From assembly GCF_018256155.1 (NCBI RefSeq), contig NZ_JAERLY010000007.1:1-64000 (forward strand): a stretch of DNA of 64,000 nucleotides. The letters are read 5' to 3'. This document shows, one piece after another, positions 3,001 to 39,993 of this stretch (its first letter is position 1; the number at the start of each line of letters is the position of its first letter). The DNA comes from Gluconobacter sp. Dm-62 (lineage in GTDB: Bacteria > Pseudomonadota > Alphaproteobacteria > Acetobacterales > Acetobacteraceae). The position numbers were made by a program, and so were the translations under genes. The notes beneath the pieces were generated by a model that had not been told where the DNA came from, ran no database searches, and saw only the letters and a program-made list of their open reading frames with translations.

Positions 3001-6000
3001 GGTGCCACGCTCTGACCGCAGATCTTGATAGCCGCTGGAAAGACAGCGTACGCGCTCTTCCATTGGCTGAAACCCTTGCAGAATGGCGTACCGTCAAGGA
3101 AAAGTGGCTGCTGGCCCGTTCCATGGGGCAGAAGGCTATTCGCAAACGGCTTGAACCTCATGCCATCGCCCTGCCTGAAGACTGTGAAAACGACCTTGAA
3201 GCTCTTGTCGAACGTGCGGCCCTTCTTGAAAAGCTCCGGAATGCTTCTCACAAGACAAGCATCGGTCCGATGTGGCGGAGTCTGGATACTGACTTCGACG
3301 CAATCAACGCCGCATTTGACTGGGGACAGGAAACACGCACCCACCTTGCGGGCTGTACAGCCGAAACGGGAGAGTTGCTCACTGCCCGCACCCATCTCAG
3401 GACTCTGCTGGTAGAAGGTCAGGATCTTCTGGCACCTGGCGGAACAATCCACGCATCCCTGACCCGTTATCTCGCGGCATTTACCGACCTTGATGCTGCC
3501 CTGAACACACTGGGAAATTGTAGTGCCAGCGACGTTACCCGGCTGGTTACCCCCGAAAATCCCAGTTGGCTCGAACAAACCACGGACAGGCTGCGGGACT
3601 GGAAAGAGGCCACTCGCGAATTGCGCGACTGGTGTTCATGGCGCCGCGCCTGCCATCAAGCCGCGCAACTCGGTCTGACACCCATGATCGAAGCCATCGA
3701 ACACGGGTTAGTCGCGCAAGATGACGTGCTGGCCGTTTTCGAAGCAAATTATGCGCGCTGGTGGACTATGCACGCCGTCAGTGATTCTGCTCTGCTGAGT
3801 AGTTTCGTGGCTGCAACCCATGAAGGGCGCATCATCAGGTTCCGCGAACTGGACGAAAAGCTGAAAACCCTGGCCATTCGTCTGATCCGTGCACGCCTTG
3901 CCGGACGTATCCCCGGCGAGGCCGCGCGGCAGCACGATCCGGATTACAAAGTTCTGACACGCGAGATTGCCAAGAAAACCCGTCACCTTCCGGTCCGTCA
4001 ATTGGCCGAAAAGATGCCAGGCGCCCTTCGGACCCTCACGCCCTGTCTCATGATGAGTCCGTTATCGGTCGCTCAGTATCTGCCCGCCGACGCAGATCCG
4101 TTCGATCTTGTTATCTTCGACGAAGCGTCCCAGATCGCAACATGGGACGCAATTGGCGCAATTGGTCGTGGCAAGCAGGTCATCGTGGTTGGCGACCCCA
4201 AGCAGTTGCCACCCACGGATTTCTTCACGGCGGGTCGGGCAGCGACTGATACTGATACATCCGATGAGATGACTGATCTTGATTCAATCCTTGACGAATG
4301 CCTCGGAGCGGGCGTTCCGGCCATCAGTCTGGAGTGGCATTATCGCAGCCGCCATGAAAGCCTGATCGCTTTTTCGAATCAGGCTTACTATGGTGGAGAT
4401 CTGGTTACCTTTCCGTCACCGGTTACGGCGGATCAGGCCGTCTCTTTCCGCTTCGTCCCGAAAGGGGTTTATGAACCCGGCAAAAATGGATCGCACACCA
4501 ATCCTGCGGAGGCGCGGATGGTGGTCGCCGAGGCTGTCCGGATCATGCGCGACGGCACCGATCGGTCGGTCGGTATCGTGACTTTCAATGGAGAACAACA
4601 GAAACTAATTGTTGATCTTCTGGATGCCGAAGTCCGCAAAGACCCTGCTCTTGAAAGATTCACAGGTGAGCAGGCTCATGAGGCGGTGCTTGTGAAAAAT
4701 CTGGAAAACGTGCAGGGCGAAGAGCGCGACATCATGCTGTTCTCGCTCACTTACGGGCCTGATATCGCAGGCAAAATCTCCATGAATTTTGGCCCCCTGA
4801 ACCGCGACGGCGGGGAACGTCGTCTCAATGTGGCGATCACCCGTGCGCGTGAACAGTTAATCGTGTTTGGATCGCTGCGGGAGGACCAAATTGCAATAGA
4901 ACGGACACGCGCCGCCGGTGTCAGGGATCTGCGACGCTTCCTGTTGTTCGCTGAACGAGGCCCAATGGCTCTGGCCGGCGCGCATGAAGGGTCTGTCGGA
5001 GGGTATGACAGTCTCTTCGAAGTCGAAGTTGCGACGATGCTTCAGGCAAAAGGGTGGGAGGTCACGACACAGGTCGGTGTTTCCGGATTCCGCGTGGATC
5101 TTGGCGTCATTGATCCTGATTTACCCAGCACGTTCCTCGCAGGCGTCGAATGCGATGGCGCCACATATCACCGGAGCGCAACGGCGCGCGACCGAGATCG
5201 CCTGAGACAAGCTGTTCTTGAAAATCTCGGCTGGAATATTCTGCGCATCTGGTCCACGGACTGGTGGACGAATGCCCCTCGCGAGGTTGAACGGATTGAT
5301 GCTGCTCTACAGAGCTTTCTGGAGATTGCCCGTCAGAAGCGCATTGATCAGGCAGAGCGGGACGCTGCAAAAGCTGAAGCACTACTGAACGCGACTGTGA
5401 ATAAGCACGAAGAGGAACCTGTTGTTTCGACCGAACCCCCGAAGGTTGAATCTGTCGCTGACGAACCCGTCTCAGAGCCGTCACCTGAAGAGGTCAGGCA
5501 TTTAGAGCCCCTTTACGCAAAGGCACCCGAAAATATTCCATCAGATGACACGACCAGTTCAGAGATCGAGGCCGATCCATCCAGATTCACGCAGGATGAT
5601 TATTTGCCGACATTGGCACGCCTTGTCGTTCGCACAATCGATCAGGCAAAGGTCATTCGAGAAGACACTCTTATTCAGACCCTGTCACGCGCACACGGCT
5701 TCAGTCGCGTCGGTCGTGAAATTCGCGAACGCGTCCAGCGCGCTATTCCTTCAGCGATAGCGCGCACCGAAGAAGATGTGGGCACTTTTCTATGGTCGGA
5801 ACGGCAGCCTGTCGTTCCACGACTGCCCCTGACATCATTAACGGCTGAGAAATCCTTGGACCCGGCGCTGGTCCCTCTTCCGGCCCTCGTAGACCTCGCC
5901 TGCCGCGCTATCGCCATCGACTGCCCGGACGAGGATGCCATTGCAAGAATGCGCGATGCCTGCGGCATGAGCCGTATGGGACAGGCAACGCGCGCTCGCT

Positions 6001-6062
6001 TCGCCACGGCTCTAAATGAAGCGCGCCGTATGAAAGATGCACACGACACGCCCCATCTATAG
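3..6062 (+). CDS. Giant DUF4011/SF1 helicase with Vsr-type endonuclease and DUF3320 (5' partial)
   Basis: The frame is open from the first bases of the window, so the real start lies to the left and the ATG at 276 is internal; at least 2019 residues are visible. Order seen: a transglutaminase-like region with Cys (750-752) and GHAF His (828-830); a DUF4011-type segment near 1231-1330; Walker A GPPGTGKS (2205-2228); Walker B DEAS (4119-4130); late SF1 motifs around VQGEERD and NVAITRARE (about 4710-4860); a Vsr/DUF559-like endonuclease with FRVDLG and VECDGATYH (about 5085-5170); and a C-terminal DUF3320-like part (5600-5800). Known relatives are single-gene helicase-nuclease defence candidates (the Hhe type in PADLOC is similar from memory). 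It probably acts on foreign DNA in the cytoplasm. It sits in an island bounded on the right by a tRNA-Glu fragment, which supports a defence role; that role is inferred. Confidence 0.9.
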   Translation, partial: CPHPKGETPFRPNAKPHTPNFQKGSEAVEITTEEKKPELRIVLQETVNASLWENSVPILEELEFDNRSENTYPVIEITITSEPHFLTPRSWMLQQIGPDELRVLNDRDLTLDGSLLSAQTEASRAVVTIVARAGGQELARATRDVRMLARNEWGGLSGIPDILAAFVLPNDPAIARILRSASEILRQAGQSPSLEGYQGDKARVWAQAQALWCAICALDITYINPPASFVENGQRIRLPTQVVEERLATCLDTTVLFAACLEAIGLRPLIVLTRGHAFAGLWLAQQDAGSSVVQDLPGIRNRLKLDDLRVFETTLATAARKPSFTAACERGEAHLRDIDDDDPDAFREVIDIHRARLRRIRPLSTSAASPTNEAAETVSNDSAGQPTFEAPPPLREEREEERLPDRPADRVQRWCNRLLDMSARNRLLNLPKSDRQLIELDCPDAAALEDMVAEMRAGSSAKPLRFVAAPGLMDDDDPRNKALHQGRHHEDAARAYALEALKRREIVVQRKEDKLQTALTEIYRHARSSEQEGGTNVLFLTIGALAWTSQDKSRPYLAPLILVPVILERASIKSPFTLRAHGDETRINTTLLEMLRAEYDIRIPLLEGDTLPEDESGLDVPKIIEAFRLHLRHIPGWEIREHVSLTTLSFAKFLMWKDLLERKEHLATNDVASRLLNGVKDGEQTGSAPSNGFDPAGDLDDALAKADLVCPMEADSSQLKAIARAAAGENFVLIGPPGTGKSQTIGNIIANTLAQGRTILFVAEKRTALEVVRARLAKLGIAEFCLDLFSPKANKMAVLQQFQTAQAALEDFQPEEYARTKQTLDTIRTELNAYVRDLHTPRRNGWTPYRGIGVTLRAQEASIVRIPLEWANADVHSQADYDTLVQSVEDLSTLYAHIGDVVVSPRLAGLEQTDWSPLWEGRLLDAANGALSALDKLREAALSVTKALSLPQNNLSYQRLEQIRALCSHLLLPHAAAWSFTENARETRDAVLLEQASVTRCHALTADLDSRWKDSVRALPLAETLAEWRTVKEKWLLARSMGQKAIRKRLEPHAIALPEDCENDLEALVERAALLEKLRNASHKTSIGPMWRSLDTDFDAINAAFDWGQETRTHLAGCTAETGELLTARTHLRTLLVEGQDLLAPGGTIHASLTRYLAAFTDLDAALNTLGNCSASDVTRLVTPENPSWLEQTTDRLRDWKEATRELRDWCSWRRACHQAAQLGLTPMIEAIEHGLVAQDDVLAVFEANYARWWTMHAVSDSALLSSFVAATHEGRIIRFRELDEKLKTLAIRLIRARLAGRIPGEAARQHDPDYKVLTREIAKKTRHLPVRQLAEKMPGALRTLTPCLMMSPLSVAQYLPADADPFDLVIFDEASQIATWDAIGAIGRGKQVIVVGDPKQLPPTDFFTAGRAATDTDTSDEMTDLDSILDECLGAGVPAISLEWHYRSRHESLIAFSNQAYYGGDLVTFPSPVTADQAVSFRFVPKGVYEPGKNGSHTNPAEARMVVAEAVRIMRDGTDRSVGIVTFNGEQQKLIVDLLDAEVRKDPALERFTGEQAHEAVLVKNLENVQGEERDIMLFSLTYGPDIAGKISMNFGPLNRDGGERRLNVAITRAREQLIVFGSLREDQIAIERTRAAGVRDLRRFLLFAERGPMALAGAHEGSVGGYDSLFEVEVATMLQAKGWEVTTQVGVSGFRVDLGVIDPDLPSTFLAGVECDGATYHRSATARDRDRLRQAVLENLGWNILRIWSTDWWTNAPREVERIDAALQSFLEIARQKRIDQAERDAAKAEALLNATVNKHEEEPVVSTEPPKVESVADEPVSEPSPEEVRHLEPLYAKAPENIPSDDTTSSEIEADPSRFTQDDYLPTLARLVVRTIDQAKVIREDTLIQTLSRAHGFSRVGREIRERVQRAIPSAIARTEEDVGTFLWSERQPVVPRLPLTSLTAEKSLDPALVPLPALVDLACRAIAIDCPDEDAIARMRDACGMSRMGQATRARFATALNEARRMKDAHDTPHL

Positions 6063-9818: not shown

Positions 9819-11504
9819 TCAGCGAGGGTGTCGTGCTGTCATGATCGCTTTGCGCAGCGAGGTCAGAGTGTGATCTGCACTGAAAGTCTCCGCCACATAA
9901 GCCTGCGCCAACTCCCCCAGTCTGCGGCATTCTTCCGGAGCAGCATACAGGTTCCTGATACAGGCAACCTGGCTGGCGGCATCGTCTGCAACCAGACCTG
10001 TAAGAGAAGCAGGAAGATTCAGGCCTTCGGCAGCGACAGATGTCATGACACAGGGAATTCCTGCCAGAAGACTTTCCACAACCTTGCCTTTGATACCCGC
10101 TCCAAATTTCAGCGGGGCAACCGTCAGACGGACATGCTCGAAAACAGACCCATCCAGATCTGCGACGTGCCCCATAACCCGAACACCTTCAGGCCAAGAC
10201 AGATGCGGCGGAAGGTGCGGGCCGACCAGCCAGAGTTCAAGTTCAGGGTTTTGGACGCGCAGCTCCGGCAGGACGTCACGGACAAACCAGAGGGCGGCAT
10301 CGAGGTTCGGGGCGTGACGGTAATTTCCAATGAAGGCGATATGACGCCGGGCCGCGACGTCCGGCGTGTGGTCGCGTTTACGGATTGCCCATGGGACGCA
10401 GGCGACGCGCGCCTGCGGGACGGCCTGACGCAGCCATGCGGCTTCCGTTGGAGAGTGTGTCAGGACGGCATCGGCCTGCCAGGCGGCGGTACATTCCTGA
10501 AGGCGGGTTCTTCTGCTGAGGGAATGGAGTTCGGGGCGTTTTTCGATTTCGGCCTGCCCTGCGATGCGGAGGTGATGCAGATCGGCGACGCTGTAGAGCA
10601 GCATGGCACCCGGCTGGTGATGGCGGGCGAGGCTCAGATATCGCGCGGCCGTGCCGATCCGGTGCAGGTAGACCAGATCGAACGCGCCGGACTGACGCCG
10701 CAGGATTTCTTCCACCGAGGCGTAATGCGGGGCGCGCCAGATTGTGAAGCCTTCTGCTTCCAGTGCGTGCCGTGCATCGGCTGGCGGGGACAGGTCATCG
10801 GCGGCAACGAGGCTGACCTCGTAGCCGAGCGCCTGAAGCGCGCGGGCGTGGGACAGCAGGGCCTGTGATCCCGCGTCCTGCCCGGCGACCGGAAGGCGTT
10901 CGTCAATGAGCAAAGCGCGCGGGGCACGGGGTTTTTCTTCGATTTCGGGGCCGTGCCGACGGGCCAGTCTGCGGTAGTGGTCGTGCTGTTCCTGTCCGCC
11001 ATCCGCGCGGGCGTGATCGGTCAGCAGGTCGTCGGCGATCTGCGCGAGGAAGGACAGGATATTTTCGCGCTCGGGGTTTGTCTGCGCACCGCCCGCGACC
11101 TGTCGCAGGAGTTCGCGCAAATCGTCGTCGAAGGTTCCGGTGGCTTCGAGGACAACGGGGGAGCCGATTAGTTCCGTTCCGTCGGCTTCGCGGCGGACCT
11201 GAATGATATGCCGTTCATGGGCGCTGAGTGGCGCGGGGATCAGCAGGTCGAAGCCCAAGCGGCCGTCCCCGAACCCCGCCTGTTGCAGGTCGGGGCGGCT
11301 CTGGTTGGCGATGACGCGGGCGATCAGCCTGCCGTTATCGAGCACCTGAAGGGCGGCGGGTTCGCTGCCCTCCCCGCCTGCCTGTACCTGGGTCGCCTGT
11401 GCCCCGGCCGCCTGTGCCCAGCCCGCGATCCGCCTGCGCGTGGCGATGTCCAGATAGCCGGGCAGGACGGCGGGGCGCGCCGGAACAACATAAGGCGGGG
11501 TCAT
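9819..11504 (-). CDS. Glycosyltransferase (GT4/GT1-like) with N-terminal beta module
   Basis: From the ATG at 11504 it has 561 residues. Residues about 15-115 form a small module (GYLDIATRRRIAGWAQ ... LQVLDNGRLIARV) that also ends the upstream Hint protein. The rest is a glycosyltransferase: an N-terminal Rossmann part with SQALLSHARALQALGYEV and a C-terminal part with KFGAGIKGKVVESLLAG and AAEGLNLP, the nucleotide-sugar site of GT4-like enzymes. No signal peptide or membrane helix is seen, so it is probably cytoplasmic. It starts 11 bases after the Hint gene stop, so the two are translated from one mRNA. The same Hint-module-GT block is fused in the protein at 34738-39993. A longer reading frame to 11684 overlaps the upstream gene and is less likely. 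Confidence 0.88.
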   Translation of the reverse strand: MTPPYVVPARPAVLPGYLDIATRRRIAGWAQAAGAQATQVQAGGEGSEPAALQVLDNGRLIARVIANQSRPDLQQAGFGDGRLGFDLLIPAPLSAHERHIIQVRREADGTELIGSPVVLEATGTFDDDLRELLRQVAGGAQTNPERENILSFLAQIADDLLTDHARADGGQEQHDHYRRLARRHGPEIEEKPRAPRALLIDERLPVAGQDAGSQALLSHARALQALGYEVSLVAADDLSPPADARHALEAEGFTIWRAPHYASVEEILRRQSGAFDLVYLHRIGTAARYLSLARHHQPGAMLLYSVADLHHLRIAGQAEIEKRPELHSLSRRTRLQECTAAWQADAVLTHSPTEAAWLRQAVPQARVACVPWAIRKRDHTPDVAARRHIAFIGNYRHAPNLDAALWFVRDVLPELRVQNPELELWLVGPHLPPHLSWPEGVRVMGHVADLDGSVFEHVRLTVAPLKFGAGIKGKVVESLLAGIPCVMTSVAAEGLNLPASLTGLVADDAASQVACIRNLYAAPEECRRLGELAQAYVAETFSADHTLTSLRKAIMTARHPR

Positions 11505-11515
11505 GGGAGGGTTGC

Positions 11516-14500
11516 TCAGGCCGCCATGCGGTCCGCCGGGTCCTGCGTGAGCGGTTCGACAACGAGCGCGGCAAGCTGCGCGTCCGACAGGCCGCCGATG
11601 AGATCGATGTCGAAAGCATGGAAGCCGTCGCCTTTCCCGGCGGCTTCCAGATCCGCCCGATACCGGTCGGCCGTTACTTCGCACAGCACCAAATCGCCGG
11701 TGCGGATTCTCAGGCGCAGTCTACCCTCGGCGCGCCCTGCATCGCGCGCCCAGCCCGCGACGCGGCCATGTGTGGCCATGTCCACGTAAAGCTCGATGGA
11801 GGACGTTTCGGACTGGGTGAATGCGGGGCGCAGACTGCGGCGGATGACTTCGAGTTCTTCCCCGCCCTCGACGCGCGGGGCGCAGTAGCGGGCGGCGACG
11901 GGTTCGGCGTCGGGGTAGAGTTCGGCGTATTCGCGGGCGTTGTGGAACATGCCGCGGCTGCCGTCATCGATGAAGGTTTCGGATGCGGCCCCTTCGGCGA
12001 AAATGATGTCGTGCGTTTCCAGTTCGATATGGATGTATGTGATCACATCGACCTGTTCGGCCTGTGTGATGGTCTGGCCGTTGACCAGCGCCTGGGCCGG
12101 GACCAGCACGCCGTTGAGGAACATGGCGTGCAGCGGCGAAATGACCAGATCGCGGCGGGGCAGTCCGTTGCCCAGAGCGCCTGAGGCAATACGTACGGGC
12201 ATGATATCCGTGCGTCCGGCGGCAAAGCGGCCGTCATAGGCGCGGCGTCCGATCCAGCGGATGGGACGGGAAGTGCCATCGCGGGTGATGAGACGATCGC
12301 CGATTTCCAGCGTTTCGACGGGGCGTTCTCCCGTTTCGGTCAGGATGGCGGTGCCGGGGCAATAGCAGGGTGTGCCTTCCGCCGTGACGGTCAGGCCGCC
12401 CGCGCTGTCCGCGCCCAGGACGAAGAAGTCCGCCGCGTAGTCGCCTGCGAAGGTCAGGGTTTCGCTGGTTTTGCCGTCCGTGAGTGTGACGAGGGTGTTG
12501 CCGCCCGAGGCCGTGCGGCTCAGGGTTGCGGCGGATCCCATGCCTTCCAGATCGATCGTATCGTTGGCGCCGAAGCCGGAAATGACGGCCTGCACGCCAT
12601 AGGCCGTGGTGGACGGGGCGACGCTCTGGATCAGGGTTCCGGCACCGTCAAACTCCAGACTGCCCGTGACCGAGGCCTTGGGGGACAGGAGGTCGAGCGT
12701 GCCACCGTCTTTGAGGAAAGTATTGCTGGCGACGGAGTTGCCGTCGATGGAGAGGCTTCCCCCGTCGAGCGTGGTGCCGCTGGCCGTGACGCCCTTGATG
12801 GTGATGGCGACCGTGCCACCCGACAACACGGTTTCATTGGTGATCGAAGCGCCGGATGTGGCCAGTGTCTGAGTGCCGTAGACTATGCCGCCCGAGGCAC
12901 TGCCGGTGAGGTTTTCCACGCCACCGGCCGAAATGACCGAACCGCTATCCGTGCCTGCGACGTCGAGTGTGCCGCCGGACAGGACGGTTGCGCCGACGAT
13001 GGTACCGCCTGCGCTGACGGTCAGGGTGTCACCATTGGAGACCACCGCGCCGGAGAGTGTGGCACCGCTGGAAACCACATTTGATGGGGTGCTGCCGGAG
13101 CCGGAGGAGCCTGCGGATGTAGTGGTGAGTGCGACGCCGCCTGTGCCGTCTGCTGACAGTGCGAGGGACGTGGCGAGTGCGCTGCCTGCGAAGGTGAACT
13201 GCTGGGTGACCGAACCGCTGCTGAGGGTGGCGACCGTGTTGCCGCCGCTGACGGTCGTAGTCAGCATTGTGCCAGTCCCCATGACCGTATCGTCGAGAAC
13301 GTCTGCGTCGCCGAAGCCGGAAATCGTGGCCAGCGTGCCGTATCCGGCGCTTGCGATGCTGTCGATCTGAAGCGTGCCCTGCCCCGAGAACAGCACCGTG
13401 CCAGACAGGGTTGCCTTGGCGGATTCAAGTTCGATGGTGCCGCCGTCGAGGATGGTGGTGTCTGTTGCCGCGGCGTTGCCGTCGATCGAGAGGATGCCGC
13501 CGTTGTTCAGCGTAATACCGCTGGCCAGAGCGCCCTTGATCGCCAGTGCGACCGAGCCGCCGTTATAGACGGTCTCGCCCGATACGCTGGCCCCGGCGGC
13601 GCTGACGATCTGGGCTCCGTCGATCTGTGTGCCGGAAACCGAACCGAGCACAGTTTCCGTGGCGCCATGGGCCAGCACGCCGCCGGATGCGGAGCCGCCT
13701 GCCGAAATCGTGGCGGAGCCGCCGGAGAGGATGCTGGCGCCGGTGGCCGTGCCGCCCGACTGCACGACGATCGAGCCGCCGTTGGAAATGGTCGCAGAGG
13801 TGCTTGAACCACCATTGGAAACTGTGACCGCGCTGGCGGTGGAGGTCTGGGTCGGGGCGAAAGAGACACCGCGGATATTGGTGTCGGCGGCGGCGGTCAT
13901 GAGGGTTGTGAAGCTCTCATCCGCTGGCGCGGTCGTCGCATCCAGATCGTCCGTGATGGTGAAGAGATAGGTCTGGTCGAGGTCGCCGATCGTGGCGTTC
14001 GTGGTGTAGAGAACAACGTCGTTCCCTTCCACTTCGCCGGTCAGTCCGATCAGGCCCGTGGTGCCGGATGCGGACGTGTTGGAGACGAGGTTGAGCCCGA
14101 CCGAGAGCGTGTAATCGAGGGTCCAGGCGGTGCCGTTATAGGTCCATTTTTGCAAACCGCCGTCGCCTACGCCGCCTGCCTTGGGGTTTCCACTATCGGC
14201 CACATACATAACGGTCGAGCTTGCGAAGAAATAGGATTCCGGGCTCAGGCTGACCGTGGAGCCAACTGCGGAGGCGTTAAGGGAATTTTCTTCGGCAGCC
14301 GTCAGGGTGACCGATCCGTCTATCGCAGGCAGGACTTCGGACTGCGTTGCCGAGACCGGGAGGGTTGTGCCGTAGCTGGCGATATTGGACGTCCCGCCGC
14401 TGCCCTGCGTGCTGTCGCGTGAGACGTAGAGGACGCCGTTGACGATTTCAGTCACGCGGGTGTCGGTGGAGGTGTCGATGGCAGTTGCGACGCTGGCACC

Positions 14501-15058
14501 GTCGGCAGCGTAAAAGACGCCTTGGGTCGTGTCGCCCTTCACGCCCTGGCCGGTGATGTAGAACGAGGTTCCGTCCACCGTTGCCACGCTGCGGATATTG
14601 TTGGTGTTGAACACGCCGTACAGGGCCGTGCTGGTATCGACCGTTCCGTCATAGCTGATATCGGCAACGACGCGGGGAACGGCCGTATAGCTTGTTCCGG
14701 TCAGACTGGTGGACTGGGCCAGACGGGCATCGCCGTACACGGCCGCACCGCCTGCGTTATAAGTCGCGGCATTGATGCCGTAGCCGCCGATGACGAGGGA
14801 CTGCCCGTCCTGCGCTAGCTGAAGCTCACCTTCCGACGAAGAGCCATATTCGCCTGAAACCGCATATTCCGTAACACCATCAACCACCGTGGTCGTCTGA
14901 GGCAGGACCAGAGTGCCGACAACCTCGCCAGTGGTTGTGATTTCTTCCAGCGTGGTGGGAGACGCCTGATTGTCCGTATAGGTGCCGCTGCCGTCCCCAT
15001 TCCCAACCACACTGATGACAAGATCACCTTCAGTGAAGGATTTTAGCGTCGAGGACAT
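11516..15058 (-). CDS. Repeat-rich Hint-domain protein
   Basis: 1180 residues without an evident signal peptide. Residues 1-390 look like a beta-propeller-type region (NLVISVVGNG-like start, LQKWTYNGTAW). Residues about 395-890 are Ser/Gly/Thr-rich AIDA-like beta repeats with a tandem copy of about 245 residues. The Hint_2 domain begins at Cys898 (TPCYCPGT) and runs through RPVETLEIGDRLIT, RPIRWIGRR and VISPLHAMFLNG to ETFIDDGSRGMFHN. The C-terminal module (YVDMATHGRVAGWARD) resembles the one starting the next gene. Hint folds catalyse N-S acyl shift autoprocessing in hedgehog, inteins and some bacterial surface proteins; activity here is unproven. It is co-transcribed with the glycosyltransferase 11 bases downstream and is probably a surface or secreted protein. 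Confidence 0.88.
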   Translation of the reverse strand: MSSTLKSFTEGDLVISVVGNGDGSGTYTDNQASPTTLEEITTTGEVVGTLVLPQTTTVVDGVTEYAVSGEYGSSSEGELQLAQDGQSLVIGGYGINAATYNAGGAAVYGDARLAQSTSLTGTSYTAVPRVVADISYDGTVDTSTALYGVFNTNNIRSVATVDGTSFYITGQGVKGDTTQGVFYAADGASVATAIDTSTDTRVTEIVNGVLYVSRDSTQGSGGTSNIASYGTTLPVSATQSEVLPAIDGSVTLTAAEENSLNASAVGSTVSLSPESYFFASSTVMYVADSGNPKAGGVGDGGLQKWTYNGTAWTLDYTLSVGLNLVSNTSASGTTGLIGLTGEVEGNDVVLYTTNATIGDLDQTYLFTITDDLDATTAPADESFTTLMTAAADTNIRGVSFAPTQTSTASAVTVSNGGSSTSATISNGGSIVVQSGGTATGASILSGGSATISAGGSASGGVLAHGATETVLGSVSGTQIDGAQIVSAAGASVSGETVYNGGSVALAIKGALASGITLNNGGILSIDGNAAATDTTILDGGTIELESAKATLSGTVLFSGQGTLQIDSIASAGYGTLATISGFGDADVLDDTVMGTGTMLTTTVSGGNTVATLSSGSVTQQFTFAGSALATSLALSADGTGGVALTTTSAGSSGSGSTPSNVVSSGATLSGAVVSNGDTLTVSAGGTIVGATVLSGGTLDVAGTDSGSVISAGGVENLTGSASGGIVYGTQTLATSGASITNETVLSGGTVAITIKGVTASGTTLDGGSLSIDGNSVASNTFLKDGGTLDLLSPKASVTGSLEFDGAGTLIQSVAPSTTAYGVQAVISGFGANDTIDLEGMGSAATLSRTASGGNTLVTLTDGKTSETLTFAGDYAADFFVLGADSAGGLTVTAEGTPCYCPGTAILTETGERPVETLEIGDRLITRDGTSRPIRWIGRRAYDGRFAAGRTDIMPVRIASGALGNGLPRRDLVISPLHAMFLNGVLVPAQALVNGQTITQAEQVDVITYIHIELETHDIIFAEGAASETFIDDGSRGMFHNAREYAELYPDAEPVAARYCAPRVEGGEELEVIRRSLRPAFTQSETSSIELYVDMATHGRVAGWARDAGRAEGRLRLRIRTGDLVLCEVTADRYRADLEAAGKGDGFHAFDIDLIGGLSDAQLAALVVEPLTQDPADRMAA
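12390..13870 (-). repeat. Tandem long repeat inside the Hint protein gene
   Basis: Two copies of a roughly 740-base unit, from about 13820-13110 and 13090-12390, encode matching series: GS-SG-(Q) turn, ETV-NGGSVA / ETVLSGGTVA, SIDGNAAATDT / SIDGNSVASNT, ISGFGDADVLDD / ISGFGANDTIDL, and a closing TFAG-SALADG-type strand. Many shorter SGGT/NGGS units sit between. The pattern fits AIDA-like beta-solenoid stalks; copy number may vary between strains. Confidence 0.7.
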
Positions 15059-30979: not shown

Positions 30980-31205
30980 CAGTAACAGATAAAATGTCAT
31001 GCGTCTCATGAATAACGATACAACCTGCCTGACGGGACATTTCAGCTTCCTGAACCTGACTGCTCGCGAGATGCTGCCATGTTGCCAACCCAGCCTCAGG
31101 CGCTCATTATAGATGACAGACTATTGCAGGTCCTGACGCGGCTGATCCTCAAAGGTTCTGGCCATCCGGTGTGTGCAGACCTGCTTCTGGCAACGGAGCA
31201 CTCAC

Positions 31206-31685
31206 ATGACCCGCGAAACAGCCGCAACAGCCTTTCTGGCAGCGAAGAACATTCCCTTCAGCGTCCATGATTACGAATACGCCCCCAATGGCGGCCTGAT
31301 CGGGATGCAGGCGGCCGAGGCCATCGGCGTGGCGCCCGAGGATGTTCTCAAAACGCTGGTGGTCGAAGTGGACAAGAAGCAGCCGGTCTGTGTGGTGGCC
31401 CCTGCCCATCAGCGGATGAATTTGAAGAAGGTTGCGGCGCTGTTCGACGGGCGCAATGCGCGGATGATGAACCCCGAGAAGGCGCAGGAGCTGACAGGCT
31501 TCCAGTCCGGCGGGACCAGCCCGTTCGGTTCAAAAACGCCGATCCCGGTCGTGATTTCGCAGGACGCCATGCCGCGCGAGCAGGTTTATATCAATGCGGG
31601 AGGTCAGGGTTTCGTGGTGCGAATCACGCCTGCGGACGCCCAGCGCGCCACGGATGCCAAAGTGGCCGATATCGCCGCGGACTGA
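31206..31685 (+). CDS. ybaK: Cys-tRNA(Pro)/Cys-tRNA(Cys) deacylase YbaK
   Basis: 159 residues from the ATG at 31206, which has CGGAG seven bases upstream. YbaK removes mischarged Cys from tRNA(Pro). Family marks are the start SVHDYEYAPN, DVLKTLVVEVD with the catalytic Lys, the central PAHQRMNLKKVAAL block, and GGTSPFGSKTPIPVVI. The C-terminus (INAGGQGFVVRITPAD) is complete. The next gene starts five bases after the stop, so the two form an operon. Confidence 0.92.
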   Translation: MTRETAATAFLAAKNIPFSVHDYEYAPNGGLIGMQAAEAIGVAPEDVLKTLVVEVDKKQPVCVVAPAHQRMNLKKVAALFDGRNARMMNPEKAQELTGFQSGGTSPFGSKTPIPVVISQDAMPREQVYINAGGQGFVVRITPADAQRATDAKVADIAAD

Positions 31686-31690
31686 GCCGC

Positions 31691-32902
31691 GTGACCGCTT
31701 CTCCCATGGCGCTGGATAACGCTGCGACGCACAAGCTCTCCCCCGAGCTGGCGCTGTCGGGGCCACAAACGGAATTGCTGGATCGGGTGGTGTCGTTCTG
31801 CGAGCGGCATCAGTCGGATGACAGCGCGATTTTCGTCATCGAGGGTGCGGCGGGCACAGGGAAGAGCGTTGTCCTGAACGCGATCTTCAATACGCTCCAG
31901 ACCCGGGCGCGGAGTGGCGCAGCGGATGATCCGCTGAAGGGCCTGCGGAACATGGTGATCGTCAACCATCCGGAGATGCTCAAGCTCTACCGCAATATCG
32001 CGGCCACCATACCCAATCTGCGCAAGAGCGATTACGAACGCCCGACGACATTCATCAACAAATCCGCCAAAACCGGGAAGCGCGCGGATATCGTTCTGGT
32101 GGACGAAGCGCATCTGCTGCTGACGCGGCCGGACCGTTACAACCATTTCGCGCAGCAGAACCATCTGGAAGAAATCCTACGCTGGGCGCGGATCGTGGTG
32201 GTGGTGTTCGATCCGTTACAGGTCCTGAAGTTCAAGAGCCACTGGTCGGCGGATCTTCTGGAACGCTTCCGCAAAGGGCGCCCCTCGAAAGAGTTTCATC
32301 TCGACACGCAGTTCCGGGTTTCGGCCAGTCCGGCCATGTGTTCGTGGATTGATGCGCTGGGACAGGGCGAAATCCTGCCGCGTCCGAAAGATCCGTCTTT
32401 TGATCTGCGGATCTATGACGACTGTGCGAAGCTCTATGCGGATCTGTGCGCGTGCAATGCAAAATACGGGCTGTGCCGCCTGCTTTCGACCTATGATTAT
32501 CCCTACACGCTCAATGGTGAGGATCATTTCATCACCGAAGGCGATTTCCGCCTGCGCTGGGACCGCTCTCTGCCAACCGAAAAATTGCCCTGGGCCGAGC
32601 GACCGGATACGATCGACGAGGTAGGGTCCGTTTATACGATCCAGGGGTTCGATCTGAATTATGCGGGCGTGATCCTGGGGCCGTCGCTGTTTTATGACGT
32701 GAAACACGACCGGATCGGGGTACGGCCGGAGCGTTATGAGGACAGCGCCGCGTTTCAGGGCCGCGACGGGATTGCGGCACCGGAAGAAGCGAAGGCGCGC
32801 GTCATTCTCAATGCCCTGAACGTCATCCTCACGCGCGGCATCCACGGGCTGTTCCTGTATGCCCATGATCCCGCCCTGCGGGAGAGGCTGCTGCGAACCT
32901 GA
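31691..32902 (+). CDS. DUF2075 P-loop ATPase / SF1-like helicase
   Basis: 403 residues from a GTG start; an ATG at 31706 is an alternative. Walker A is EGAAGTGKS (residues about 52-60) and Walker B is VLVDEAHLL (about 138). FDPLQ and TQFRVS match helicase motifs III and IV, and YTIQGFDLNYAGVIL with NVILTRGIHGLFLY matches motifs V and VI. DUF2075 proteins are putative nucleic-acid helicases found alone or in defence-related operons. Here it follows ybaK by five bases; the link between the two functions is unclear. Confidence 0.85.
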   Translation: MTASPMALDNAATHKLSPELALSGPQTELLDRVVSFCERHQSDDSAIFVIEGAAGTGKSVVLNAIFNTLQTRARSGAADDPLKGLRNMVIVNHPEMLKLYRNIAATIPNLRKSDYERPTTFINKSAKTGKRADIVLVDEAHLLLTRPDRYNHFAQQNHLEEILRWARIVVVVFDPLQVLKFKSHWSADLLERFRKGRPSKEFHLDTQFRVSASPAMCSWIDALGQGEILPRPKDPSFDLRIYDDCAKLYADLCACNAKYGLCRLLSTYDYPYTLNGEDHFITEGDFRLRWDRSLPTEKLPWAERPDTIDEVGSVYTIQGFDLNYAGVILGPSLFYDVKHDRIGVRPERYEDSAAFQGRDGIAAPEEAKARVILNALNVILTRGIHGLFLYAHDPALRERLLRT

Positions 32903-34737: not shown

Positions 34738-37700
34738 ATGGCGTCCAAGTTGCTTATCAATGAATTCATGTTTAATCCAAGTGCATCTGGCGATCCCGAT
34801 GAATTTATTGAAGTAAAAGGTGACTCCAGCACCGATTACAGCGCATGGTCCCTGATTGTTGTTGATGGCGACGGGAGCGTGGCTGGCAAGGTTGATAACG
34901 TCTTTACAGTTGGCACCACGAACAGCGATGGCTACTGGGTCACGCCGTTTCAGACGAACGTCCTGCAAAACGGCACGCAGACTGTCCTTCTGGTCAAGGA
35001 TTTCACGGGCAAGGTCGGGGATGATCTCGATACGGCCAATGGCGGGACGTTCACGTCGACCCCCTGGTCCGAGATTGGCGACACGATTGCGGTCTCTGAT
35101 GGGGGCAAGGGCGATCCGACCTATGCCGGTGCGCCCGTCCTGACCGGTTCGATCATCAGCGGCGCCTCGCGCATCCCCGACGGCACGGATACGGACAGCA
35201 CATCAGACTGGGTCGCGGATGACCCTTCCCTCTCCGGGATTACAGGCTATGGCACCACGGCCGCAGCCGGGACAGTTCTGGTCACGCCGGGGGCCGCGAA
35301 TGACGGCACGTCCTCTGGTGGTAGCACTGGAGGATCGGGCGGTTCGGATACGGGTGGTTCTGATAGCGGCGGAACGGGCACGGGCAGTGGGTCCGACACG
35401 GGTGGCACTGGCACTGGCACTGGCAGCGATACCACAACACCGCAAAACCTGACGGTCCAGCAGATCAACGGTACCGGATATTACAGTCCGTATGCCAATG
35501 CGTCCGTCATGACCACAGGTGTCGTAACGGCCGTGGACACGAATGGAAGCATCGGTTTCTGGATCCAGCAGACGAATGCTGACAAGAACACGGTCGGCAG
35601 TACAGGCATTTTCATCTACGCAGGCAAAACGGCGACGCTTCCGACAGTAGGCGAAACCGTGTCCGTCACGGGAACGGTGACGAATTATTCCGGCACGTCC
35701 TGGAGCAAGTCCCTCACTCTGCCGGAAATCAACCTCGTCTCCTACACCGACACCGGTGCGGCCTATGTGAACGTCATACCGGCGGTCGTGGGTCAGGGCG
35801 GGCTGACAGTGCCGGCGGCGTCCTATCTGGGCGACATGACGCAGGCGATCGACCTCAACAAGAGCACGGCCGCTCTCAGCCCGGACACCAATGCGCTCGA
35901 TTTCTACCGCAACCTGATCGGTCAGGTCATCACGCTCCATGATGCCGTGGCCGTTGGCGCCACGGCCTCGAACGCAACATGGGTCGTGCCTGATGACGGC
36001 AATGGCCTGCTGACACCGACGGGTGCGCTTCAGGAAACGGCCGACAGCGTCAACACGCAGCGGATCGAGCTTTATTACGACAGCGGCGTCACGCCGGGAT
36101 CTGCCATCAGCGCGGAAGTCGGAGACAAGCTGGGCGACATCACAGGTGTGCTGACCTACTACAACGGCATCTATGAACTGGTCCCGACCACACAGGTCAC
36201 CGTCCTGCATACCGAGACCCCGGCGCCGGTCACGTCCCTGCACAAGGACGACCAGAACCTGCTGGTCAGCGATTACAATATCGAGAATTTCAACGCGCTG
36301 GACCCGGCGAATGCGGACCGTCTGAAGCAGGTCGCGCAGATCATCGTCAACAATCTCGACAGCCCGGACGTGCTGGCCGTTCAGGAAATCCAGGACGACA
36401 GCGGCACAACCAATGACGGCACGGTCAGCGCGGAACAGAACCTTGCTGCCCTCGTCAAGGCCATCGCCGATGCGGGTGGGCCGACCTATTCCTGGGCACA
36501 GGTGGACCCAACCAACAACGCCTCGGGCGGTGTTTCGGGCGGCAACATCCGCAGCGTCTTTCTCTATAATCCCGAGCGCGTCAGCCTCGCGGCCCCCGTC
36601 ACAACCATTGGTGACGAGGAACTGGCCAGCGGCACTTTCAAGAATACCCGCCTGCCGCTGGTCGGCACGTTCGAGTTCAACGGCCAGACCGTTACGCTCG
36701 TCAATGTGCATCTGTCATCGCAGGCCGGCAGCAGCGAGCTTTATGGCGCAACACAGCCGCCCGTAAATCATGGCGGCACGACGGGGACGGTCAACAACCG
36801 TATCGCGCAGGCCCAGTACATCACGAACTACGTCAACGGTCTGACGTCCAGTGATCCGACCGCCAAGGTGGGCATCCTCGGGGACTTCAACGATACCGAA
36901 TGGAGCGACGCCCAGCAGGTCTATACAAATGCCGGCCTGACGGACATGAGCAGCACGGAAGACCCGTCCAACCGCTACACCTATATTTTTGAGGGCAATG
37001 CGGAATCGCTGGATCATACGATCGGCAGTTCGTCCTTCGCCAGCGCCGGGAAGTTCGAAACGATCCACGTCAACACCGGCTCACTGACTGGCGAGTCCGA
37101 TCACGATCCGTCCGTCACCCTTCTGGAAATGACGGATTACAGCGCGACGAATGGTGCTTCGCTGTCGAATGTCAGCCTGGCTTCGGGGCAGACCGCCGCG
37201 GTTCACAGCGGTAGCACGGCATCAGGAATTACGGTGGGCGATGGCAGCCGTCTGGCGCTGTATGCCGGCAGCGCGGCCAATGGCATCAGCGTTGCCAGCG
37301 GGGCGAAGATCGACCTGCCGGAACTGGCCTGGTCCAGGGATGCTACCACGACCCTGACGGATGCCTCGACGCTTCAGGTCACGAGCGGAAGCAACACTTA
37401 TACGATCAGTCTCAATGGCGCCTATGACGCCGATTTCTTCAGTCTGACCGCCGATGGGTCCGGTGGCACGATGCTGCTTGCCGAAGGGACACCCTGCTAC
37501 TGCCGGGGCACGCTGATCCTCACCGATCGTGGGGAAGTGCCGGTCGAGGCGCTGCGGATTGGCGACCTGATCCAGACCGCCACCAATGGTCTGCGCCCGA
37601 TCCGCTGGATCGGCCGTCGCAGTTATTCCGGCACCTTCGCCAATGGCAACCGCGACATCATGCCCGTCGTGTTCCGCAGCGGAGCGCTCGGGCACGGTCT

Positions 37701-39993
37701 TCCGCATCAGGACCTATCGGTGTCACCGCTGCATGCCATGTATCTAGATGGCGTTCTGGTTCCGGCCGTCCTGCTGGTGAATGGCAGCACCATCCTTCAG
37801 GCCGAATGCATGGATGAAGTGGCCTATTTCCATGTCGAGCTGGAACACCACGACATCATCATCGCCAACGGCACACAGTCCGAGACCTTCGTGGACGATA
37901 ATTCCCGCGGCATGTTCCACAATGCGGGTGAATATGACTTCCTTTATCCGGATGCCGCTGCTGCTTCCGCCCGCTACTGCGCGCCCCGCGTCGAGGAAGG
38001 TGCACAGCTCGAAGCACTTCGCAGCCGCCTGAACCCGGCGTCCCCGAAAGCCACTGCACTGGCCCCGCTTCAGGGCTATGTGGATGTCGCAAGCCACCGC
38101 CATGTCACAGGCTGGGCCCGTGTCCCGGGCAGTGACGGGCCGGTCCGTCTGCAGATCATCGATAACGGGCTCGTTCTGGGTGAAGTCCTGGCGAACCTTG
38201 AGCGGGGCGATATCGGGAGTGCGTGCGGGTTCCATTTCGACATTCCGGGCGGTCTGTCCTCTCTGGAACGTCATGTTCTGGAAGTGCGTCGTGCGGACGA
38301 TCACGCGGCGCTCGGCCACAGTCCGTGGATGATGGATCTGGCCGAACCGAAAGCACGTCAGGCCATTGTTGCGTCCACCCCCGTCACGCCGATGGATGGC
38401 TGCATCGATATCGCAACGCGCAACCGGATCACTGGCTGGGTCTTCAGCCCTGCTACGCCGGATCAGGCTGTAAGCCTGCAGATCGTTGATAACGGTGTCG
38501 TTCTTGCATCCGTAGTCGCCAATGGTCGCCGTCCGGATGTGGCGCGAACCGGTCGTCCGATGCTGTGCGGCTTCGATGTTCTGCTGCCCGGTGGTCTGTC
38601 ACCCATGACGCGCCATGTTCTGGAAATCCGCCGCAGTTCTGATGGTGCCCTGCTGGGTGAGCCGCAGATCCTCGAACCTGCCCGGACTTTCGACGCCGAC
38701 ATGACCCGCAGCATCGCGCGGGCCGTGGCCGCAGCGGCGGACGATCAGGACGGCGATCAGGTCCTGTCCTTCCTGCTCGCGCAGGCGGAGAAACTCCGTC
38801 AGGCACGCTCGGACGCCACAAGCGGCATGGCGACGGCAACGCTCGGAGCCGCAATGCGCCGTCGCGGCATGGCCACGCAGGAGCCCGTCATGCGCAAACG
38901 GGCGCTGGTCATCGACGGGCAGCATCCGGACGCGAAACGTGATGCCGGATCGCAGGCCATCCTGTCGCATATGACGGCGCTCGAAGCGCTGGGTTACGAC
39001 GTGTTCTTCATCGCGGCGGACCAGATGGACCGGACGTCCACACTGGACGCCCTGCCCGGCGCAACCGTTCTCGGTCAGCCGTTCTTCGCTTCGGTGGAGG
39101 ATGTGCTGCGTCGTCAGGCGAACAGCTTTGACGTCGTCTACCTGCATCGCGAGGACATTGCGACGCGCTATATGGCGCTGGTGCGCCGTCATCAGGGCAA
39201 CGCCCGCGTGCTGTACAGCGTCGCGGATCTGCACTTCCTGCGCCTCGCCCGTCAGGCAGCAGTTCAGGGACGCCCCGAACTGGTGGCACAGGCGAACCAG
39301 ACGCGCGTTGCAGAATACAGGGCCGCTCTTCAGGCCGACGCCGTCCTGACGCATTCCGAAGCCGAAGCCGCACAGCTTCGCAAGGATCTGCCACAGGCCA
39401 GCGTGCATGTGGTGCCCTGGGCCATTCCTGCACAGACAGGCCATGCGGACGGCAAAAACGACGTGGTGTTCGTTGGCAATTACGCCCACGCGCCCAACGC
39501 TGACGCGGCCCGCTGGCTGGTGAATGAGATCATGCCGGCCGTCTGGGCGGCTGATCCGACCATCTGCTGTACGCTGGTTGGTGCGGACATGCCGCAGAGC
39601 ATCCATGCCCTCGCCGATGAGCGCATCCGGGTTCTCGGCCATGCGCAGGATCTGGGAGCGGTTCTCGCGGCCCATCGTCTGAGTGTCGCCCCACTGCGTT
39701 TCGGAGCGGGCATCAAGGGCAAGGTTATTGAAAGTCTCGCCTCCGGCCTGCCCTGCGTCATGACGCCGGTCGCGGCGGAAGGGCTTACGCTGCCGGGAGC
39801 ACTTGAGGATCTCGTGCAGGCGGATGCTGCTGCTTTGGCCGAGCAGATCGTGGCCCTGCACAATGCGGGGGATGTGTCTGGGGTGGTCGAAGCCGGTCAG
39901 GCGTTTGCAGACCAGACCTTCTCTGTGGAGGCTGTCACCACGGCCCTCGAACAGGCCCTGAGCTGCAAGCCTGCTCTGCGCGCCGCCGTCTGA
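34738..39993 (+). CDS. ExeM-like nuclease / Hint / glycosyltransferase fusion protein
   Basis: 1751 residues. In order: lamin-tail domain (1-170, LLINEFMFNPS); Gly/Ser/Thr linker (185-240); OB-fold segment (about 238-345); EEP nuclease/phosphatase domain (about 505-795) with SDYNIENF, VQEIQDD, VNVHLSS, GDFND and SDHDPS, all expected catalytic residues; AIDA-like repeats (800-910); Hint_2 domain starting at Cys920 (TPCYCRGT) with GDLIQT, RWIGRR, SPLHAMYLDG; two beta modules (about 1115-1200 and 1220-1312, YVDVASHRHVTGWAR and CIDIATRNRITGWVF); and a GT4-like glycosyltransferase (about 1388-1751) with RFGAGIKGKVIESLASG. LTD-OB-EEP is the ExeM extracellular nuclease plan. No N-terminal signal peptide is seen. 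The Hint-module-GT part is collinear with the two genes at 9819-15058. Confidence 0.9.
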   Translation: MASKLLINEFMFNPSASGDPDEFIEVKGDSSTDYSAWSLIVVDGDGSVAGKVDNVFTVGTTNSDGYWVTPFQTNVLQNGTQTVLLVKDFTGKVGDDLDTANGGTFTSTPWSEIGDTIAVSDGGKGDPTYAGAPVLTGSIISGASRIPDGTDTDSTSDWVADDPSLSGITGYGTTAAAGTVLVTPGAANDGTSSGGSTGGSGGSDTGGSDSGGTGTGSGSDTGGTGTGTGSDTTTPQNLTVQQINGTGYYSPYANASVMTTGVVTAVDTNGSIGFWIQQTNADKNTVGSTGIFIYAGKTATLPTVGETVSVTGTVTNYSGTSWSKSLTLPEINLVSYTDTGAAYVNVIPAVVGQGGLTVPAASYLGDMTQAIDLNKSTAALSPDTNALDFYRNLIGQVITLHDAVAVGATASNATWVVPDDGNGLLTPTGALQETADSVNTQRIELYYDSGVTPGSAISAEVGDKLGDITGVLTYYNGIYELVPTTQVTVLHTETPAPVTSLHKDDQNLLVSDYNIENFNALDPANADRLKQVAQIIVNNLDSPDVLAVQEIQDDSGTTNDGTVSAEQNLAALVKAIADAGGPTYSWAQVDPTNNASGGVSGGNIRSVFLYNPERVSLAAPVTTIGDEELASGTFKNTRLPLVGTFEFNGQTVTLVNVHLSSQAGSSELYGATQPPVNHGGTTGTVNNRIAQAQYITNYVNGLTSSDPTAKVGILGDFNDTEWSDAQQVYTNAGLTDMSSTEDPSNRYTYIFEGNAESLDHTIGSSSFASAGKFETIHVNTGSLTGESDHDPSVTLLEMTDYSATNGASLSNVSLASGQTAAVHSGSTASGITVGDGSRLALYAGSAANGISVASGAKIDLPELAWSRDATTTLTDASTLQVTSGSNTYTISLNGAYDADFFSLTADGSGGTMLLAEGTPCYCRGTLILTDRGEVPVEALRIGDLIQTATNGLRPIRWIGRRSYSGTFANGNRDIMPVVFRSGALGHGLPHQDLSVSPLHAMYLDGVLVPAVLLVNGSTILQAECMDEVAYFHVELEHHDIIIANGTQSETFVDDNSRGMFHNAGEYDFLYPDAAAASARYCAPRVEEGAQLEALRSRLNPASPKATALAPLQGYVDVASHRHVTGWARVPGSDGPVRLQIIDNGLVLGEVLANLERGDIGSACGFHFDIPGGLSSLERHVLEVRRADDHAALGHSPWMMDLAEPKARQAIVASTPVTPMDGCIDIATRNRITGWVFSPATPDQAVSLQIVDNGVVLASVVANGRRPDVARTGRPMLCGFDVLLPGGLSPMTRHVLEIRRSSDGALLGEPQILEPARTFDADMTRSIARAVAAAADDQDGDQVLSFLLAQAEKLRQARSDATSGMATATLGAAMRRRGMATQEPVMRKRALVIDGQHPDAKRDAGSQAILSHMTALEALGYDVFFIAADQMDRTSTLDALPGATVLGQPFFASVEDVLRRQANSFDVVYLHREDIATRYMALVRRHQGNARVLYSVADLHFLRLARQAAVQGRPELVAQANQTRVAEYRAALQADAVLTHSEAEAAQLRKDLPQASVHVVPWAIPAQTGHADGKNDVVFVGNYAHAPNADAARWLVNEIMPAVWAADPTICCTLVGADMPQSIHALADERIRVLGHAQDLGAVLAAHRLSVAPLRFGAGIKGKVIESLASGLPCVMTPVAAEGLTLPGALEDLVQADAAALAEQIVALHNAGDVSGVVEAGQAFADQTFSVEAVTTALEQALSCKPALRAAV
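35305..35440 (+). repeat. Low-complexity Gly/Ser/Thr linker region
   Basis: About 45 codons of GGS, GTG and GSDTGG units joining the lamin-tail and OB parts of the fusion protein. The DNA repeats are imperfect and length may vary between strains by slippage. Confidence 0.7.

Follow-up and report, generated by a model that had tools for sequence, protein, structure and literature searches.

The locus and its fused gene

The window, meaning the whole stretch of DNA analysed (64,000 nucleotides), belongs to a Gluconobacter genome whose 52 contigs add up to 3.46 Mb. On its forward strand, a single uninterrupted ORF with an ATG start (34738-39993) encodes 1751 residues in which a putative nuclease is followed by a Hint domain, two modules named "GWA" after a conserved G-W-A, and a GT4-like glycosyltransferase (GT). 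The part ahead of the Hint is termed the passenger. The features of this gene, and of a second cassette in the window, are listed below with the evidence used.

34738..39993, + strand: fused gene; LTD-like/OB-like/EEP passenger, AIDA-like stretch, Hint_2, two GWA (FN3-like) modules, GT4 (profiles, orthologues)
34738..35307, + strand: N-terminal LTD-like domain, residues 1-190 (motif resemblance only; conserved in relatives)
35446..36237, + strand: OB-like region as in the ExeM/NucH plan, residues 237-500 (aligned to 9sf9 from residue 240 on; relative L062 has a weak OB match)
36238..37125, + strand: EEP nuclease/phosphatase domain, residues 501-796 (NF033681, 9sf9; catalytic residues invariant)
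37126..37482, + strand: AIDA-like SG-rich stretch ahead of the Hint, residues 797-915 (by eye)
37483..37941, + strand: Hint_2 domain, residues 916-1068 (PF13403, E 6.3e-45; intein/BIL fold matches)
37495..37497, + strand: Cys920, predicted first Hint nucleophile, with the predicted cut at Pro919/Cys920 (Cys in 80/81 GT-linked Hints)
37732..37734, + strand: His999 of the SPxH motif, block B His (81/81 GT-linked Hints)
38068..38343, + strand: GWA module 1, FN3-like, residues 1111-1202 (fold search)
38392..38685, + strand: GWA module 2, FN3-like, residues 1219-1316 (fold search)
38890..39972, + strand: GT4-like glycosyltransferase, residues 1385-1745, both Rossmann halves (profile, GT-B fold, motifs)
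11516..15058, - strand: second cassette, split; AIDA-like passenger, Hint_2 and one GWA module, 1180 aa (profiles)
9819..11684, - strand: second cassette, split; GWA module and GT4, gene start probably near 11504 (profiles)

The preliminary description had placed an EEP nuclease plan, a Hint and a complete GT4 in one 1751-residue ORF, and this architecture and its coordinates were confirmed. The catalytic residues that it named were present (SDYN 511-514, QE 549-550, GDFND 715-719, SDHD 787-790 and Cys920). A survey for the same domain order, as it had proposed, returned full-length orthologues of 76-95% identity in 10 other genomes of the genus (25 searched), and a scan of named genomes found an identical plan in Acetobacter fallax and A. 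senegalensis; in Asaia astilbis the chain was broken ahead of the GT. An eleventh genome of the genus (G002, contig C20) carries a copy with a frame break near codon 355. The window sequence, the 10 full-length orthologues and part 353-1751 of the G002 copy were aligned, and SDYN, QE, GDFND, SDHD and Cys920 were invariant across these 12 sequences. Relative to L050, dN/dS was 0.05-0.19 in every one of ten segments, which indicates purifying selection. A fusion confined to one genome was ruled out by the orthologues and the named-genome scan; a chance ORF was rejected on the grounds of sequence conservation and dN/dS. In plasmid records, no single place covered at least 80% of the Hint-GT part.

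The GT is unlikely to be made on its own from a start codon inside the gene. The candidate starts common to most of the 12 orthologues (offset -65 in 9/12, offset -9 in 8/12) had a Shine-Dalgarno-like motif in none; starts with such a motif occurred in 4/12, mostly at differing places.

At the passenger end, the ExeM/NucH model NF033681 spanned residues 259-779 at 150 bits, under its curated cut-off of 300, and PDB entry 9sf9 (an EEP-domain protein) aligned over 240-794 (E 4.4e-64). Pfam PF19580 gave only E 0.021 on the fused protein, below its cut-off, and PF03372 passed in relatives. The EEP domain is predicted from the 9sf9 match together with the conserved residues. The EEP part of the LTD-OB-EEP plan described earlier was thus upheld, the OB part was represented by a weak match in relative L062 (E 0.012), and the LTD part gained no profile support: there was no Pfam match at E≤1 in the fused protein or its relatives L161 and L062, and no convincing match in a PDB profile search, so this assignment is one of motif resemblance. 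The OB-EEP order and catalytic residues are shared with ExeM/NucH proteins; the fused protein differs in falling below the family cut-off and in continuing into Hint, GWA modules and GT.

The profile and structure check suggested earlier for the Hint gave a match to Hint_2 (PF13403) at residues 919-1054 (153.6 bits against a cut-off of 28.4), with Cys920 and His999 intact. A model of the Hint-GWA-GWA part (pLDDT 90.9) had fold matches, with TM by target of 0.60-0.70, to two inteins (gp41-1 and MchDnaB) and to the BIL domain 2lwy. Among the 81 GT-linked Hints of the family described below, Cys920 was conserved in 80 (L105 has Ser) and H999, Y1030, H1032, E1034, H1038 and E1049 in all, in fused and split forms alike. 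The equivalent of the TxxH motif was SPLH, with Ser for Thr and the His kept. Intein block G, the C-terminal His-Asn, was not found in any of 95 aligned Hint genes (81 GT-linked and 14 unlinked); at what we take to be its position, placed from intein motifs, all 95 had E-T/S-F/Y. Pro preceded the Hint Cys in 67/81 linked Hints versus 2/14 unlinked ones. Pro at -1 disfavours N-terminal cleavage by inteins, and a cut at Pro919/Cys920 may therefore be slow or need a trigger.

In the same model, the two GWA modules formed beta-sandwiches with FN3-type hits in a fold search. By E-value the modules hit FN3 tandems; the alignment of two-module chains made the TM-scores low (about 0.2-0.3 by target) and the rmsd high. 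The modules had been called sugar-binding-like, a label that found no backing: the hits were FN3-type with no sign of sugar binding, and there was no Pfam match.

The GT matched Glyco_trans_1_4 (PF13692) at 1574-1708 (72.9 bits against a cut-off of 27, E 4.3e-20) and, under its cut-off, Glyco_transf_4 at 1412-1563 (E 2.9e-4). The cassette model (pLDDT 84.2, pTM 0.54) had a GT-B fold with GT4-type matches, among them GlgM, MshA, BshA and PimB' and, lower down, the protein glycosyltransferases SdgB and GtfA/B. The best curated model was that of an XrtA/PEP-CTERM-system GT, well below its cut-off. Conserved positions (D1402-A-G, H1470-R, K1660/K1662 and E1681-G) suggest an active enzyme.

A family of Hint-GWA-GT cassettes

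The fused gene belongs to a large family of cassettes that recur in acetic acid bacteria and share the order passenger-Hint-GWA-GT, whereas their passengers vary. Named genomes were searched with a profile of GWA2 and GT alone (A1), and the best 80 of at least 552 relatives were kept. These gave 81 GT ORFs, of which 44 were fused to a Hint; for 34 the Hint lay one such ORF further upstream, on the same strand, and the other 3 (L091, L126, L127) had none. The query was seeded from Hint-linked genes, so the resulting 78/81 is not a random sample. GWA modules and GTs of this kind were found without a Hint in L143 as well as in these three.

Layouts were counted for the best 80 of at least 552 relatives plus the two cassettes of the window and a third cassette of the source genome, on contig C51 (L009). 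The fused forms comprised 29 Hint-GWA-GWA-GT and 16 Hint-GWA-GT. The split forms comprised 15 Hint-GWA / GWA-GT, 11 Hint-GWA / GWA-GWA-GT, 7 Hint / GWA-GWA-GT, 2 Hint-GWA-GWA / GWA-GWA-GT and 1 Hint-GWA-GWA / GT; 3 were without Hint. The 36 split loci include L068 and L084, which look like frame-broken copies, and 28 of the 36 pairs carry GWA on both halves. The Hint Cys and His were kept in 36/36, which means that removal of the GT is not the Hint's sole purpose. This weakens the earlier suggestion that Hint cleavage separates two products, as in these loci the GT is already encoded in another ORF.

To lessen query bias, eight genomes were searched separately for Hint_2 and for the GT. After removal of two second pieces, 72 of 74 Hint rows were kept; after removal of one second piece and 19 module-only rows, 30 of 50 GT rows were kept. 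All 10 GTs with a contiguous GWA lay within 4 kb of a Hint, versus 1/20 other related GTs (one of these 20, G035:C20, is in an ORF that carries two GWA modules and no Hint). GT-linked places made up 11 of the 72 for the Hint. Sequence distances of Hint and GT were correlated (r 0.81, 79 pairs), a value reached by 0/999 permutations. Together these counts and comparisons strongly support a coupling between Hint and GT. On the GT tree there were at least 7 switches between fused and split forms (for fused versus the rest, the starred branches force 3), so the two forms look interchangeable.

In L083, L087, L111, L112 and L115 the genes of the split pair lie in one frame with a single stop between them. 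Read-through was considered and set aside; separate genes are the simpler account because candidate start codons follow the stop. The frame was also broken in some copies: inside the passenger in G002:C20, inside the Hint in L084, and ahead of or inside the GT in L068, L150 and G003:C31.

The source genome has 11 Hint_2 genes, 3 of which carry or adjoin GWA-GT. The Hints associated with GWA-GT form a distinct subtype (SPxHA, YCAPR). The open-licence part of PubMed Central yielded no report of a Hint-glycosyltransferase cassette and no tested function for Hint_2 domains of this kind. One study notes that Hint domains are over-represented in fast-responding Rhodobacteraceae (PMC12487129).

Passengers, composition and export

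Passenger starts were set at the first Met of the stop-to-stop ORF for the clustering, Sec and composition counts, so some leaders are not real. The 81 rows of linked Hint proteins (L084 entered twice, L068 left out) fell into 32 BLAST passenger clusters, a few of which are truncated scraps. The LTD-EEP nuclease formed one cluster of 14, every one fused. By a loose motif count, 50/78 passengers were AIDA-like versus 25/407 other ORFs. Median S/T/N/G content was 44% in passengers versus 22% in other ORFs of the loci.

The same LTD-EEP passenger was found in another genus (genome G026, L161 5620-9042, - strand) on a Hint of another subtype; its C-terminal region differs, and no GT domain was present within the 11 kb covered. 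The nuclease therefore does not need the GT, and passengers move between cassettes. The pairing of nuclease and GT, to which the preliminary description drew attention, is incidental: passengers of many kinds occur on the cassette, and this nuclease is also found on a GT-free Hint.

Composition changed sharply at the Hint. In the 75 passengers longer than 150 residues, Cys made up 38/53,170 residues versus 587/42,570 from the Hint on, and median K+R was 1.8% versus 10.1%. All 11 Cys of the fused protein are at 920 or later. Eight Hint-alone proteins of the source genome had 2 Cys in 2,410 residues before the Hint versus 31 in 2,748 after it, so the step goes with the Hint rather than with the GT. 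Nucleotide sugars are cytosolic. The step fits an exported part that would end at Pro919/Cys920, with Hint, GWA and GT staying in the cytosol.

The N-terminus of the fused protein is not Sec-like, in agreement with the earlier remark that no Sec signal is visible. Among 66 passengers with a readable start, 2 passed a crude hydrophobicity limit, and neither of these had a Sec-like n-region. RTX repeats gave no Pfam match in the fused protein. A candidate exporter was found elsewhere in the source genome, at L137 8416-16935 (contig C33), where an ABC-HlyD pair has a Sel1-repeat protein and a GT2-GT4 fusion as neighbours; this pair is a possible exporter of Hint proteins. The candidate type I secretion (T1SS) ABC gene was present in 33/36 family genomes and 1/24 others; the three family genomes in which it was not found, G028-G030, still match the fused protein. 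A T1SS operon adjoining the cassettes was rejected: there was no HlyD match, and six ABC-type hits only, the best at 180 bits (L101).

Possible roles, known relatives and neighbouring genes

The reading that we put first, while giving it somewhat less than an even chance, is that the GT modifies its own passenger with sugar, the Hint then cuts, and the Cys-free passenger is exported without Sec. The full chain would at first stay in the cytosol, with the GT tethered to the passenger either covalently (fused form) or by GWA-GWA docking (split form). A GT held near the passenger before the Hint step is proposed because such an arrangement fits both forms alike. Sugar would be placed on the GT's own passenger, most likely on its Ser/Thr/Gly/Asn-rich linker or repeats. 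A Hint thioester at Pro919-Cys920 would then lead to a cut on the N-terminal side only, without the intein C-terminal block, and the Cys-free passenger (here the nuclease) would come away from Hint, GWA modules and GT and leave the cell by a Sec-independent route, perhaps type I secretion.

Several observations speak for passenger glycosylation: the presence, for nearly all GT ORFs among the best 80 of at least 552 relatives, of a Hint in that ORF or in its upstream neighbour, the co-inheritance of Hint and GT, GWA modules on both split halves, the retained Hint and GT motifs, the step in Cys and K+R, and the S/T/N/G-rich passengers. There is a precedent in TibC, which heptosylates TibA and AIDA-I (PMC4358343). 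Against it, the EEP passenger also occurs on a GT-free Hint, and GWA modules and such GTs also occur Hint-free; Pro at -1, poor for cleavage, is common in linked Hints; the scarcity of Cys and K/R may stem from the make-up of the repeats, and Hint-alone proteins share the Cys step; and the candidate T1SS ABC gene was not found in 3/36 family genomes. A less probable course, yet one to be taken seriously, is a Hedgehog-like transfer in which the Hint would pass the passenger C-terminus from the Cys920 thioester to a sugar or glycolipid made or held by the GT. The GWA modules would act as the adduct recognition region and the passenger would end glycan-anchored. This would explain why the Hint is retained when the GT is split off, and it agrees with the lack of the intein C-terminal block; the region after the Hint is GWA and GT in linked Hints and different in the Hint-alone relative, much as the SRR/ARR regions differ among Hog proteins (PMC2362128). 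No adduct is known, however, the GWA modules have FN3-type hits without known ligand, and the best curated model for the GT is the sub-threshold XrtA/PEP-CTERM-system one. Its specific form, a bacterial "glyco-Hedgehog" whose own GT would build the sugar or glycolipid acceptor to which the Hint esterifies a secreted passenger, is rather doubtful. Of these two proposed mechanisms, we favour passenger glycosylation and release over passenger transfer to a glycan.

Plain separation, in which the Hint would cut the chain into an independent nuclease and GT working elsewhere, is improbable. The change in Cys and K/R content at the Hint and the intact Hint residues accord with a cut, but the 36 split loci need none and yet keep the Hint Cys and His, and the co-inheritance of Hint and GT is left unexplained. 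There is a similarly small chance that the Hint, its cleavage being blocked by Pro at -1, does not cut at all and serves as a structural or export-gating module, with the whole chain acting and the GT working in cell-envelope glycan synthesis. The prevalence of Pro at -1 in linked over unlinked Hints and the XrtA/PEP-CTERM-system model, itself below cut-off, point that way; a dead scaffold would not need the Cys920 and His999 that are so widely kept, and the composition step at the Hint also argues against it. Accidental fusion without joint function, through gene order, sequencing or stop loss, is very improbable: split versions do occur in the same genome and some copies are broken, but there are 10 full-length orthologues, every segment is under purifying selection, and 44/81 ORFs are fused among the best 80 of at least 552 relatives.

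Several known systems come close to the cassette. With the Hint_2 (PF13403) exoproteins of Alphaproteobacteria the cassette proteins share a Hint towards the passenger C-terminus and no visible Sec signal; the 3 of 11 in the source genome differ by GWA-GT and by their Hint subtype. Type B BIL domains likewise are without intein block G and are expected to cleave without splicing (PMC4031507); the cassette adds downstream FN3-like modules and a GT, and has nuclease or repeat passengers. Hedgehog and Hog proteins (PMC9163320, PMC2362128) also have a secreted-type passenger, a Hint and then a class-specific downstream region, and N-terminal thioester chemistry would be expected likewise in the cassette Hint. 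The cassette differs from them in Ser for Thr in TxxH, an enzyme downstream and no known adduct. The autotransporter heptosyltransferases (BAHT) of AIDA-I and TibA, which are characterized by an iron-finger motif, a beta-barrel and a dodecamer (PMC4358343), resemble the cassette in pairing a dedicated GT with AIDA-type exoproteins. The cassette differs in that its GT is GT4-like and Hint-fused to its presumed substrate, with no Sec signal seen.

Many exoprotein-like genes of these bacteria contain Hint_2, and a linked GT makes its function there testable. Either passenger glycosylation or glycan transfer, if true, would put the intein/Hedgehog fold to a new use and could provide a ligation tool. 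The acceptor-building form, if true, would provide a new route to surface proteins anchored by a glycan, in which the precursor itself encodes the enzyme that makes the acceptor.

Two further loci of the window were recorded. At 31173-32902 (+), an aminoacyl-tRNA editing protein adjoins a Schlafen group 3 helicase, the latter with weak PADLOC matches only. The gene at 276-6062 (+) combines a DUF4011 helicase with an MTES_1575 nuclease domain and gave a strong match, at 1203.7 bits, to PDC-S37, a candidate defence model of PADLOC.
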